From the NCBI GenBank assembly GCA_015207585.1, contig JADEWQ010000052.1:1-37341 (forward strand): a stretch of 37,341 bases of DNA, in the 5' to 3' direction. The DNA comes from Pleurocapsales cyanobacterium LEGE 06147 (GTDB lineage Bacteria > Cyanobacteriota > Cyanobacteriia > Cyanobacteriales > Xenococcaceae). Under the pieces are notes generated by a model. It had not been told where the DNA came from, ran no database searches, and saw only the letters and a list, made by a program, of their open reading frames with translations. How positions within the stretch are numbered: the stretch's first letter is position 1; every line of letters starts with the position of its first letter. Both the position numbers and the translations under genes were made by a program. This document shows positions 6,151 to 27,247 of this stretch, piece by piece.

Positions 6151-7233
6151 ATGGCAATTGAAAAACTAATTCCGTTAATCTTTTTGGTTTTTGTCCCGAT
6201 CGCGATTGCTGCCGATCGCTTGGATTGGGACGATACGGCGGTGTTTGTCACGTCAGCGATCGCCATTATTCCCCTGTCGATTTGGCTGAGTACCGCAACG
6301 GAAAAAGTCGCTGTAGTTACAGGACCATCGGTGGGAGGCTTAGTAAATGCAGTGTTTGGTAATGCCACCCAACTAATCGTAGCGTTGATGGCATTGCGTA
6401 AGGGATTAGTGGATATTGTCCAAGCCAGTATTACGGGAAGTATTATTAGTGCTTTGCTGCTGCTACTGGGATTGGCGATGTTTACAGGCGGCTTGCGTTA
6501 CAAAGAACAGACATTTAAACCGATAGTTGCTAAAGTGAATGGCTCGTCTATGACTCTAGCAGCCATCTCCCTAGCACTGCCAACGACGGTGATTGCTACG
6601 TCAAACATCATCGATATAGTGGCGATTCGTAATATTTCAATTATCGTTTCCATCATTTTGATCGCCGTCTATGTACTAACGCTAATTTTTTCATTAGGAA
6701 CTCACAGCTATCTCTATGAAGTGGGATTGTATGATGAAGAAGACTCGACAGATAAAGCCGAGCAACCATCCCGAAAGCTGTGGTTTTGGATTGCGGTGTT
6801 GTTAGCATCAACCATTGCCATTGCCTTTATTTCCGATTTGTTTGTGGGGGTCATCGAACCAGAAACCGAACAATTGGGTTTAACACCCTTATTTACAGGA
6901 GTAATTTTGCTGCCTTTGTTGAGCGATATCCCAGGATACGCGCTCGTCATTCGCCTCGCTTTAAAAGATAAAATGGACCTTACTGTTGCCACTGTAACGG
7001 GCGATAGTTTGCTGATAGCATTATTTGTTGCACCAGTGCTAGTGCTGGTGGGTTTGGCACTCGGACAACCTATCGATCTCAACTTTAATACCTTTGAAGT
7101 CATCGCCATTGTCATCAGCGTCATTGTGGCTAACTTGATCAGTTTTAGCGGGCGATCGAACTGGTTAGATGGTACGTTGCTAATTGCAACCTATTTAGTA
7201 TTGGGAGTTGCCTTTTATTACCATCCAGCATAG
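6151..7233 (+). CDS. Ca2+/H+ exchanger (Cax)-like membrane protein, non-canonical
   Basis: A 360-residue integral membrane protein with about 11 hydrophobic segments and an acidic central loop (EVGLYDEEDSTDKAEQPSRK), as in CaCA-superfamily Cax antiporters, which move Ca2+ out against H+. The first alpha repeat is recognisable (GPSVGGLVNAVFGNATQLIV) and the second is followed by KDKMDL and IALFVAPVLVLVG, typical of Cax. However, the glutamate of the GNATE motif is Gln74, and the second GNAAEH motif is replaced by SDIPGY (residues 258-263). Both key acidic residues are thus missing, so Ca2+/H+ exchange is doubtful and the substrate may differ. The start is ATG 6151; a TTG at 6097 would add 18 unlikely residues. 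It is divergent from the lipoprotein gene. Confidence 0.8.
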   Translation: MAIEKLIPLIFLVFVPIAIAADRLDWDDTAVFVTSAIAIIPLSIWLSTATEKVAVVTGPSVGGLVNAVFGNATQLIVALMALRKGLVDIVQASITGSIISALLLLLGLAMFTGGLRYKEQTFKPIVAKVNGSSMTLAAISLALPTTVIATSNIIDIVAIRNISIIVSIILIAVYVLTLIFSLGTHSYLYEVGLYDEEDSTDKAEQPSRKLWFWIAVLLASTIAIAFISDLFVGVIEPETEQLGLTPLFTGVILLPLLSDIPGYALVIRLALKDKMDLTVATVTGDSLLIALFVAPVLVLVGLALGQPIDLNFNTFEVIAIVISVIVANLISFSGRSNWLDGTLLIATYLVLGVAFYYHPA

Positions 7234-7519: not shown

Positions 7520-8545
7520 TAGCAATTTTCATACTCATGAGGTACAGTAACAGCAATGAGTAAACCAGTTACGAATATCATCTTTTGTTACTTTTAACAT
7601 TGCAGCGGTTATGGCATTGATTAAATCCTTGTAAATTCTAGCTTTCACTTTTTTTAAGATTGCTTTAACTTTTGACCAAAAATTTTCGATTGGGGAAAAC
7701 TCTGGAGAATAGGGAGATAAATAAATGAGTTTGGCTCCGGCTTTTTCGATTAGTTCTCTAACCATTTCTCCTTGGTTAATTTTGGCATTATCCATAACAA
7801 CAGTTGCATTTTTCCACAGTTTTGGAACCAACTCTTGAGCAATAAATGCTTCAAATGTTACCCCATCAACTGCTCCATAAATATTGCTAGATGCCAGGAC
7901 TTCTTCTAAAGATAAAGCACTTAATAACGCCACATTTTTTCCTCTCTTTTGGGGTTTTGTTCCTCTGGCTCTTTGACCAATTATTGCTCTAGCATACATC
8001 CTAATCAGGGCGAGATTAACCCCAGATTCATCAATAAAAATTAGGTCTTTAGCTGGAATACATCGTATCTTTGACCAAAACTCAACTCGCTTTTTCTGAA
8101 CTCTTTCACTTTCTTTTTCTGTGGCATGAAGAGTTTTTTTTTACACTATAGTTCAACCGTTGAGTTATTCGTCCCATCGTCGCTCTACTTACTCTAATGC
8201 CTAGATTTTCTTCGAGTAAATCCCATAACTCTTCAAGAGTTGCATCATTATTACTTTCAATAATTTCTATTAAAGTCATTAATTGTTCTTCCTGGAGTTT
8301 AGATGGAGGACTACCTCCTTGAGTTTGTGGACTTATATCTCCTGTTGTTTGATATTGTTTTAGTAATTTTTGAATAAAACTTTTAGCAACTCGAAAACGT
8401 TGAGCAAGTTTTCTGAGGGAAATATTTTCATTTTCATAGACTTCGAGAATTTTTTGCCGAAATTGGATTGAGTATGGCTTCATCTCAAATTTTTATAGTT
8501 TGTAGCTTTCGCCTCAACTGTACCTCATAGCTGTGAGAAACGCTA
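7520..8545 (-). mobile_element. IS630-family insertion sequence
   Basis: A 1,026-bp element bounded by imperfect 31-bp inverted repeats (7518-7548 and 8517-8547, counting the TA) that agree at both ends in TATAGC and ATGAGGTACAGT; I count 24 of 31 matches. It is flanked by the dinucleotide TA at 7518-7519 and 8546-8547, the target duplication expected for IS630/Tc1-mariner elements. It carries one transposase in two frames and sits inside a DUF29 gene. Confidence 0.88.
7535..8483 (-). CDS. IS630-family transposase in two frames (orfA/orfB)
   Basis: The first frame (8483-8106, 125 residues) begins MKPYSIQFRQKILEVYENEN and holds the helix-turn-helix (LRKLAQRFRVAKSFIQKLLK). The second frame (visible to 7535) holds the DDE catalytic core: Asp in IFIDESGVN, Asp in VVMDNAKIN, Glu in FSPIENFWSKVK. 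The frames meet at a run of nine A (T on the plus strand, 8134-8142). Shifting +1 (equal to -2) there continues as TLHATEKESERVQKKRVEFW, the normal IS630 linker. Slippery A-runs serve programmed frameshifting in several IS families, so the transposase could still be made; a disabling indel is the alternative. Confidence 0.85.
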
Positions 8546-24412: not shown

Positions 24413-27247
24413 TCATTTTCTATTTGATTTTATCGACCTACCTAATGAGCGTTGATGGTTAAACCAAGGATAAAACAACTTCTCTAACTCGATCCAAACA
24501 AACATCAAAATGCTAAAACCAAAACAGATTGCTAATTCTGTAGGACTTAACCAATGAGTATTGAAAAAATTACGTAAGGGTTCGACATAAATTAATAGCA
24601 ATTGTAGGCAAGTCGTTAAGGTCACTGCAACTAAAACATAAGGATTAGACAAAGGATTAATTTGTATAGTTAGCCGAGTATCCGAGCGAATGGCTAGAGC
24701 ATGACCCATTTGTGCCAAACAGAGAGTTGTAAATACCATCGTTTTCCAACGATTCGGATCTCCTGAAGCATGGGCGTAATTGTATGACCAAACCATCAGC
24801 ACAATACTAAGAATTGCAAAAATAATCCCGATACGCACCATATAAAGTCCCAAGCCTCGTGCAAAGATATTTTCGCGGGGATTGTAGGGAGGACGCTTCA
24901 TAACATCCGGTTCGGCTGGTTCCATCGCCAGTGCTAGGGCAGGCAAACCGTCGGTTACCAAGTTCATCCAAAGAATTTGTAAAGGAGAGAGAGGAATGCC
25001 GCCCAAACCAATTAAGGGAGCGGCGGCAATGGTTAAAACTTCGCCAATATTGCTGCCTAGAATATATTTAATGAAGCGACGAATATTGTCGTAGACTACC
25101 CTGCCTTCTTCTGTGGCGGCGACAATGGTGGCAAAGTTATCATCGAGCAAAATCGCGTCGCTGGCTTCTTTGCTGACATCAGTTCCCGTAATTCCCATAG
25201 CAATACCGATATCTGCTTGTTTGAGAGCGGGAGCATCATTAACTCCATCTCCCGTCATGGCAACAAATTTCCCACATTTTTGTAGTGCCCGAACAATGCG
25301 AAGTTTATGTTCGGGAGAGACGCGAGCATAGACGTTCACCTCTTCTACTATTTATTCTAGTTCGATGGTCGATAATTTTTCCAATTCTTGTCCCGTCAGC
25401 ATTCGATCGCCAGGATGAGCGATGTCTAACTGGGTAGCGATCGCCATAGCAGTCAACGGATGATCTCCGGTAATCATCACTGGACGAATTCCTGCTTGCT
25501 GACAACAGTTTACCGCTTCTTTAACTTCTTTGCGGGGTGCATCGAGCATTCCCACCAAACCCAACCAAACTAATTCCCGCTCGTTCGTCTCTTCGCTTCC
25601 TGCTTCGGGAATCTCTGCTAGAGGCTTATAGGCAAATCCCAACACCCGCAACCCCTGACTCGCCATTTGGTCGTTTTGAGCCAGAATTTGTGCCCTTAGG
25701 TCAAGGGTAAGAGGAATGAGGCGATCGCCACTTTGAATGCGGCCGCAACGCTCTAACATCAGTTCTGGCGAGCCTTTGGTAAACATTAAATAGGGCGACT
25801 CTTCAGTGGCTGTTTTTTCCCCGCCATCAACGATGACTGACATGCGTTTCCGTTCTGAAGAAAAAGGAAACTCAGCCAACCGAGGCATGAAAGGTTCTAA
25901 TGCTTCTTTAAAGATACCTGCTTTACCTGCCAACGTTAAGAGCGCACCTTCGGTAGGATCGCCCAAAATTTGCCATTCTTGTTGTTGGTGTGTTGTTTGC
26001 TGTTGTAAGAGAGCATCATTGCACAGTACGCAGGCATAAAACAGTTTTTGAGTTTCTGGTGTTTCTATGTTGTTGTTTTGTCGATCGTAAAATTCTCCTA
26101 TAGGTGCGTAACCTTCTCCCGTAACCCTAAAGTAGTTAGACTCGGTATAAACCTGTTGCACGACCATTTTGTTTTGGGTAAGCGTTCCTGTTTTATCCGA
26201 ACAAATAGTCGTAACAGAACCTAAAGTTTCTACCGCAGGCAGCTTGCGGATTAAGGCATGACGACGTACCATCCGCTGAGTACCAATGGCTAAAGTGACA
26301 GTAACGACAGCAGGTAGTCCTTCTGGTACGACAGCGACTGCCATACTTAATGACACTTCCAACAGTTGTTCAAAATATCCCCATCCGGTTCGTACTACGC
26401 CACCAATAACTACCAAAGCGACTAGCACCATCGAACTGCTGACCAAGACATTACCCAGTTGCGACATTCGCTGTTGCAGGGGAGTAGGTTCGCTTTCCAC
26501 TGCCTGAAGCATGGCGGCAATGTGTCCGATTTCCGTATCCATCCCCGTTTTGGTGACTAAGACTTTGGCTCGTCCTTGTACTACCTCTGTCCCTTGGAAT
26601 ACTAGGTTGTGGCGATCGCCTAAGGGAATATCTTCTGCTAAAATAGCATCGGCTCGCTTGGTTACTGCTTCTGCTTCTCCCGTTAAAGTAGACTCGCGAA
26701 CTTGCAGGTTTTGCGCTTCGAGCAGACGACCGTCGGCGGCAATTTGTACTCCTGCTTCTAGAAGCATCACATCTCCGGGAACTAACTCCTTAGCCAAAAC
26801 TTCAACGGTATTTCCATCGCGAATGAGTCTTACTTGAGGAGCGGAAAGACGTTTGAGAGCTGCTAAGGCTTTTTCGGCTTTACTTTCTTGTAAATATCCC
26901 AGAATTCCATTCAAAATGACGATAGCAAAAATGGCGATCGCATCTTTAGGGAACACTCCTTTGCGTAAATCCAAAATTGCCGACACTACTGCTACGGCAA
27001 TCAGCATTACCAGCATGATGTTGGTAAACTGCTCCCATAAAATGATTAAGGGAGTGCGACCGCTTGTTTCTTTTAGTTCGTTTAAGCCAAAATATTGCTG
27101 TCGTTGGTTAATTTGCTCCTCTGTCAATCCTCGAGCGGGTTCGCTTTGCAGCAGTTGCAACGCCTGTTCGGTGGTTAACGTATGCCAAGCTTCTGTTGTT
27201 TGGGGTATAGCCTCAGAAGAGAGGGAAGAGGTAGTCGGAAATACCAT
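24413..27247 (-). pseudogene. P2A-type Ca2+-transporting ATPase with one in-frame stop
   Basis: One reading frame of 945 codons encodes a P-type cation ATPase broken by a single TAA at codon 632 (25352-25354). Upstream are the actuator motif [28 protein letters not shown] of the Ca2+ site in M4, and the phosphorylation motif [10 protein letters not shown] (Asp351). Downstream, in the same frame, are [38 protein letters not shown] and [16 protein letters not shown]. Together these indicate a SERCA/PMR1-like (P2A) Ca2+ pump. The stop sits between STIELE and [13 protein letters not shown], a GAA- or CAA-to-TAA change away from sense. Each half lacks essential motifs, so the gene is probably inactive unless the stop is read through or is a sequencing error. 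ATG 27247 is the start. Confidence 0.9.

Follow-up and report, generated by a model that had tools for sequence, protein, structure and literature searches.

A cyanobacterial clade of CAX-family exchangers with a replaced binding pocket and two invariant aspartates

Glu-74 and Glu-324 of the Aphanothece CAX have reportedly been examined by mutation. In YfkE, a site for Ca2+ and phosphate was modeled on N69, E72, N99, N252, E255, H256, S278, and Q281 (PMC10227063); the paper once prints Q252, where the chain has Asn by alignment. Alanine mutants of E72 or E255 lose H+-driven Ca2+ transport, E255Q loses Ca2+ binding whereas E72Q binds Ca2+ threefold more tightly, and Q281A and H256A shift the KM for phosphate most (PMC10227063). 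In the modeling, N252 and S278 were held 4.5 A from phosphorus, distances that are imposed restraints and not measurements (PMC10227063).

Here, we describe an exchanger from the Pleurocapsales cyanobacterium LEGE 06147, encoded in a stretch of DNA of 37,341 nucleotides (hereafter the window). The protein matches the NCBIfam profile TIGR00378, “calcium/proton exchanger,” over its full length at 374.3 bits against a cut-off of 211.15, and is also matched by Pfam PF01699. Its best solved relatives in phmmer searches are VCX1 (E 8e-70), YfkE (2e-59), and plant CAX1 (8e-48). An AlphaFold model built from 15 sequences (pLDDT 83, pTM 0.82) gives TM scores of 0.88 to VCX1, 0.80–0.81 to YfkE, 0.80–0.88 across VCX1, YfkE, and plant CAX1, and 0.65–0.68 to the archaeal CAX 4kpp, as against 0.51–0.58 for NCX structures, and it predicts that the CAX fold is intact. 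In a set of 15 sequences tested against the profile, all 15 match TIGR00378 at E <= 0.001, so that an equivalog named for calcium/proton exchange includes the clade despite its missing calcium ligands. Elsewhere in the window, transposase-like frames with DDE_3 and HTH_32 domains lie at 7535-8483 (minus strand), from 0.3 kb downstream of the exchanger. A P-type cation ATPase at 24413-27247 (minus strand) is broken by a frameshift or a sequencing error, so that its C-terminal domain and its N-terminal domains fall in separate frames (24413-25339 and 25352-27247).

The eight YfkE site residues correspond one to one, in the order given above, to window residues 71, 74, 101, 259, 262, 263, 285, and 288. 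The features of the exchanger are listed here, with groups A (ordinary CAX) and B and clade C as defined below.

6151..7233, plus strand: CAX-family exchanger of 360 amino acids, clade C (open frame, family profile, alignment to solved CAX, AlphaFold model)
6304..6306, plus strand: Lys52; clade C has Lys, Arg, or Asn here, groups A and B almost always Glu (thinned sets)
6370..6372, plus strand: Gln74 (CAA) at the first-repeat signature Glu position, YfkE E72 (alignment)
6451..6453, plus strand: Ala101, matching the pocket Asn of TM3 (YfkE N99); of the 39 clade C sequences, 27 have Asp and 12 have Ala
6922..6939, plus strand: SDIPGY, residues 258-263, replacing GNAAEH (alignment)
6925..6927, plus strand: Asp259, aligned with YfkE N252; invariant in clade C (39 of 39)
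6934..6936, plus strand: Gly262, aligned with YfkE E255 (the Glu required for Ca2+ binding); invariant in clade C (39 of 39)
7003..7005, plus strand: Asp285 on TM8 (GDS for GSS), aligned with YfkE S278; invariant in clade C (39 of 39), Ser in 149 of 149 from groups A and B
7012..7014, plus strand: Leu288 on TM8, aligned with YfkE Q281; invariant in clade C (39 of 39), Leu also in 78 of 79 group B sequences, Gln in group A

An earlier note on this DNA had read Gln74 in GNATQLI and SDIPGY in place of GNAAEH, and both are confirmed by translation and by alignment to solved CAX: Q74 aligns with the first-repeat Glu, and G262 with the Glu of GNAAEH, in VCX1 (4k1c), YfkE (4kjr), and plant CAX1 (9vsa). 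Agreement among these three proteins rejects misalignment as the cause of the missing glutamates; the protein has neither signature Glu. The replacement extends further than the note described. The window pocket reads N, Q, A, D, G, Y, D, L, whereas that of ordinary cyanobacterial CAX reads N, E, N, N, E, H, S, Q, and seven of the eight residues differ, with Tyr263 for His beside the changes listed and Asn71 the sole residue kept. By alignment, Asp285 and Ala101 are part of the same pocket replacement as residues 74 and 258–263. The charge is not simply lost from the pocket, since two invariant, compensating aspartates, 259 and 285, appear in it; these the note overlooked.

Homologs came from four overlapping sources, with further copies added from the same genomes: a scan of all species genomes, which picks up close relatives only (14 loci), 386 genomes of the phylum, 30 relatives, and 388 genomes of the order. 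In the phylum and order searches all listed matches of at least 58% identity were taken and most weaker ones were left out, so that counts for group A are lower bounds. The alignment holds 193 homolog rows, 21 rows having been dropped as duplicates: at least 70 ordinary sequences (group A), 79 of group B, 39 of clade C, and, outside every group count, L043, L183, L105 (NENNENAQ), and the half-sequences L077 and L077.1. Group B is a label coined in this analysis, and we know of no published name for these cyanobacterial CAX. No paper on clade C was found in the open-licence literature searched.

D259, G262, and D285 are each absent from all 149 group A and group B sequences, and the fixation of the second-repeat replacement throughout clade C rejects chance as its origin. 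Variability at position 74 exceeds that at 93% of positions, whereas 259, 262, 285, and 288 are invariant in the clade: the 39 members have T (13), E (8), A (7), V (6), L (3), Q (1), or G (1) at 74. Taken jointly, positions 74 and 101 hold exactly one acid in 31 of 39, two in 2, and none in 6, the window protein included. Loss of both glutamates thus does not define the subfamily, eight members keeping the first; of the Gln74 and SDIPGY whose conservation the note proposed to check, D259 and G262 are fixed in the clade and Gln74 is not. Other positions changed together with the pocket in the thinned sets, namely 43 (Ala to Ser), 52 (Glu to Lys, Arg, or Asn), 258 (Gly to Ser), and 333 (Asp to Ser or Gly in most cases). 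By our tally, clade C is carried by 13 of the 386 phylum genomes and 30 of the 388 order genomes. In the window's own family all 18 other genomes among the relatives searched have one copy each, all of type A, and the clade C gene is therefore patchy there. Spread on plasmids was rejected: 97 plasmid records match, all below 60% identity and none cyanobacterial by genus name.

Three trees were compared, a careful tree of 70 identity-thinned rows, built without nine trait columns, and quick trees of 77 and 81 rows, the last including 11 more distant cyanobacterial CAX copies (L212–L222). Clade C, L043 with C, and B with L043 and C were recovered in all three. Support in the careful tree is 100/99, 99/96, and 100/100, respectively, with B as a grade around the others, and the same nesting has support of 98, 94, and 92 in the 81-row tree. 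Group B has Gly for Asn259, Tyr for His263, and mostly Leu for Gln288 (Ile in the one exception), and keeps Glu74, Glu262, and Ser285 in all 79 sequences. L043 is intermediate, with the pocket N E D D G Y S L (E74, D101, D259, G262, S285). L183 has a B-like pocket with Gln262 and is placed among group B. Besides this Gln and an Ala in a far relative, the second gene of L218, only L043 and clade C show gained Asp or a lost Glu262. Read from the sequences, group B and L043 form a stepwise series toward clade C. Within the clade, the window protein groups with the A74 sequences L006, L007, L130, and L131 at 98/93 (careful tree). The fewest changes between Glu and non-Glu at position 74 are two on the tree; a single loss with a regain and several losses are both possible.

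The 11 distant copies are a separate lineage (support 100) with GGxVEY-like or GxAVEI motifs, in which the pocket Asn is Gly, Ser, or Ala and the His is Tyr or Ile, and both Glu and the Gln are kept. Because this lineage has also replaced Asn and His, those changes are repeated or their direction is unsure; on the alignment, Gly and Tyr in these places are not specific to the path from B to C, and the direction is not fully settled. L218 comes from genome G634, where a 441-residue CaCA protein (L218:1386-2708), 27% identical to the window protein, is encoded directly behind another CAX; its second repeat reads GNVGAL, so that the second Glu is absent.

Could such a pocket simply be decaying? 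Pairs within clade C whose dS is under 1 have dN/dS of 0.04–0.09 (L006–L130 0.066, L006–L007 0.094, L010–L135 0.042); between the window copy and its nearest relatives dS is saturated. Monophyly, conservation, low dN/dS at unsaturated dS, and the intact predicted fold argue against decay of clade C as a whole, and the earlier view of a distinct subfamily rather than decay stands for the clade, although the window copy shows somewhat more private change. Among 22 thinned members, it has seven private changes at otherwise invariant clade sites, where the next has six and 16 of the 22 have zero to two. It has lost Glu227, invariant in the other 21, its end branch is long (0.61 in the careful tree), and transposase frames begin 0.3 kb downstream. 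However, its frame is open and full-length, all four clade-fixed pocket residues (259, 262, 285, 288) are retained, the predicted fold is intact, and just one of the seven private changes falls at a site that is also more than 95% conserved in groups A and B. Decay of this copy is therefore very improbable. Mild relaxation in the window copy alone is possible, and the gene probably encodes a working transporter with different ion chemistry.

Where both signature glutamates are gone, what could bind the cation? We consider it fairly probable that clade C is a functional cyanobacterial CAX subfamily whose pocket was rebuilt stepwise, with Asp259 and Asp285 taking over cation and proton binding and with an altered ion or coupling. 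In a first step, an ordinary CAX would have become group B through loss of three polar residues beside the glutamates (Asn to Gly, His to Tyr, Gln to Leu), both Glu being kept. The second Glu would then have become Gly while Asp259 arose one helical turn earlier, and a second aspartate, Asp285, would have arisen on TM8, after which the first Glu would be dispensable. The two aspartates would replace Glu in binding cation and proton within the usual alternating-access cycle. That E255Q of YfkE loses Ca2+ binding and E72Q does not would fit a need of E255 for a nearby new carboxylate, with E72 freer to drift. Group B is predicted to be a phosphate-independent Ca2+/H+ exchanger, because its phosphate-side residues are lost and both Glu are kept. 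Clade C should be phosphate-independent too, since Asp259 and Asp285 sit where the YfkE model, with its restrained phosphate distances, would place phosphate; the putative closeness of the two aspartates is taken from the same model. With a fixed pair of aspartates, this place would repel phosphate and could accommodate a cation.

The best reading of the sequences is thus of carboxylates that moved into the phosphate subsite of what would still be a cation exchanger, with a cation or coupling probably other than Ca2+/2H+; another substrate, as the earlier note had proposed, is plausible. More tentatively, the phosphate subsite may have turned into a cation site that made the calcium Glu dispensable and yielded an exchanger for another cation, be it Mg2+, Mn2+, or a monovalent one, whose intermediates survive in living cyanobacteria; this we regard as possible rather than probable. 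The living series of A, B, L043, and C offers a ready set for the residue-by-residue change of ion or coupling in an exchanger.

Alternatively, the two aspartates could restore an equally charged Ca2+ site one turn away, leaving an ordinary Ca2+/H+ exchanger with its substrate unchanged. All 39 members do carry at least two carboxylates (259 and 285), as in ordinary CAX, and NCLX runs Ca2+/H+ exchange with two Asp, its D>E double mutant being still active (PMC12571890). However, the geometry is not preserved, because the ligand shifts its position on the helix and the Asn/His/Gln/Ser shell has mostly disappeared, and other CAX genes in the same genomes also speak against an unchanged role. A second contig of the window genome encodes an ordinary CAX that is 52% identical (blastp) and has GNATELI, GNAAEH, and GSSMQ. 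An ordinary copy is found in 26 of the 31 clade C genomes, this query itself and 25 at 75–82% identity, and its pocket is fully ordinary in all 26. Another four (G623, G634, G574, G598) have other CAX copies with both Glu, so that 30 of 31 keep another both-Glu CAX, which would leave clade C free for another role. The exception, G547, shows clade C only: the search with the ordinary paralog found no other CAX in this 760-contig assembly, and there clade C may still cover Ca2+ export, or the paralog may be missing from the assembly. Overall, we regard an unchanged Ca2+/H+ exchanger as unlikely, and favor the altered ion or coupling.

The same search was applied to 12 group B genomes chosen as single-copy, and ten had no CAX besides B, among them G548 and G550, which are 84% and 73% complete. 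B is apparently the sole CAX of some cells. In the remaining two, G497 and G523, the search also recovered a fragment and a more distant copy; in both the B copy lies beside a fragment of ordinary CAX. CAX genes of groups A and B stand in tandem at L161 (G506) and L171 (G488).

A further possibility is a CAX relative that no longer transports and is retained as a sensor, or to partner the ordinary protein. Clade C is without the equivalent of E255 throughout and of E72 in 31 of 39, and Ala mutants of either residue in YfkE lose H+-driven Ca2+ transport (PMC10227063). Two new invariant aspartates would, however, be unneeded in such a protein, the ordinary paralog of the window genome lies on another contig, and no neighboring gene family stands out. 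Neighborhoods were compared by ORF clustering over whole stretches, for 27 clade C loci (counting the window as well as L229, which duplicates the L013 region), L043, and five group B loci. Across these 33, the most frequent family beside the exchanger occurs in seven (response regulators, by eye) and the second in four (short-chain dehydrogenases, by eye), with the rest in three or fewer, and several recurrent neighbors come from close relatives with identical surroundings. An operon or partner gene was rejected for want of a recurrent neighbor, and the regulatory role suggested earlier is likewise unsupported. We consider a transport-dead protein improbable, and return to clade C as an exchanger. 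Neighbor families 8 and 9 form a pair common to L013/L229 and the L043 region.

How does clade C compare with described exchangers? With the CAX family (VCX1, YfkE, plant CAX1) the window protein shares a full-length profile match, the fold, and the first-repeat Asn71, and it differs in seven of eight pocket residues, in the absence of both signature Glu, and in two new Asp. Group B, joined to it at 100/100, shares the replacement of pocket Asn259, His263, and Gln288 but, unlike clade C, retains Glu74, Glu262, and Ser285 throughout. Plant MHX, a Mg2+/H+ exchanger of the same CaCA superfamily, also has a natural Gln for the first-repeat Glu, in all its members, and an Asp where NCX has Asn (PMC3679957); it offers a precedent for an exchanger of a different ion that naturally lacks the first Glu. 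However, MHX falls on the NCX side of this superfamily and keeps the second-repeat acid in all but one member (PMC3679957), whereas the best profile and the solved-structure matches of the window protein are those of CAX. NCLX and related CCX proteins resemble clade C in having two Asp, used in NCLX for Ca2+/H+ exchange, but these occupy the Glu positions (MjNCX E54/E213 correspond to D153/D471; PMC12571890), whereas the aspartates of clade C lie elsewhere, and their structural match to the window model is weak (E 0.02).
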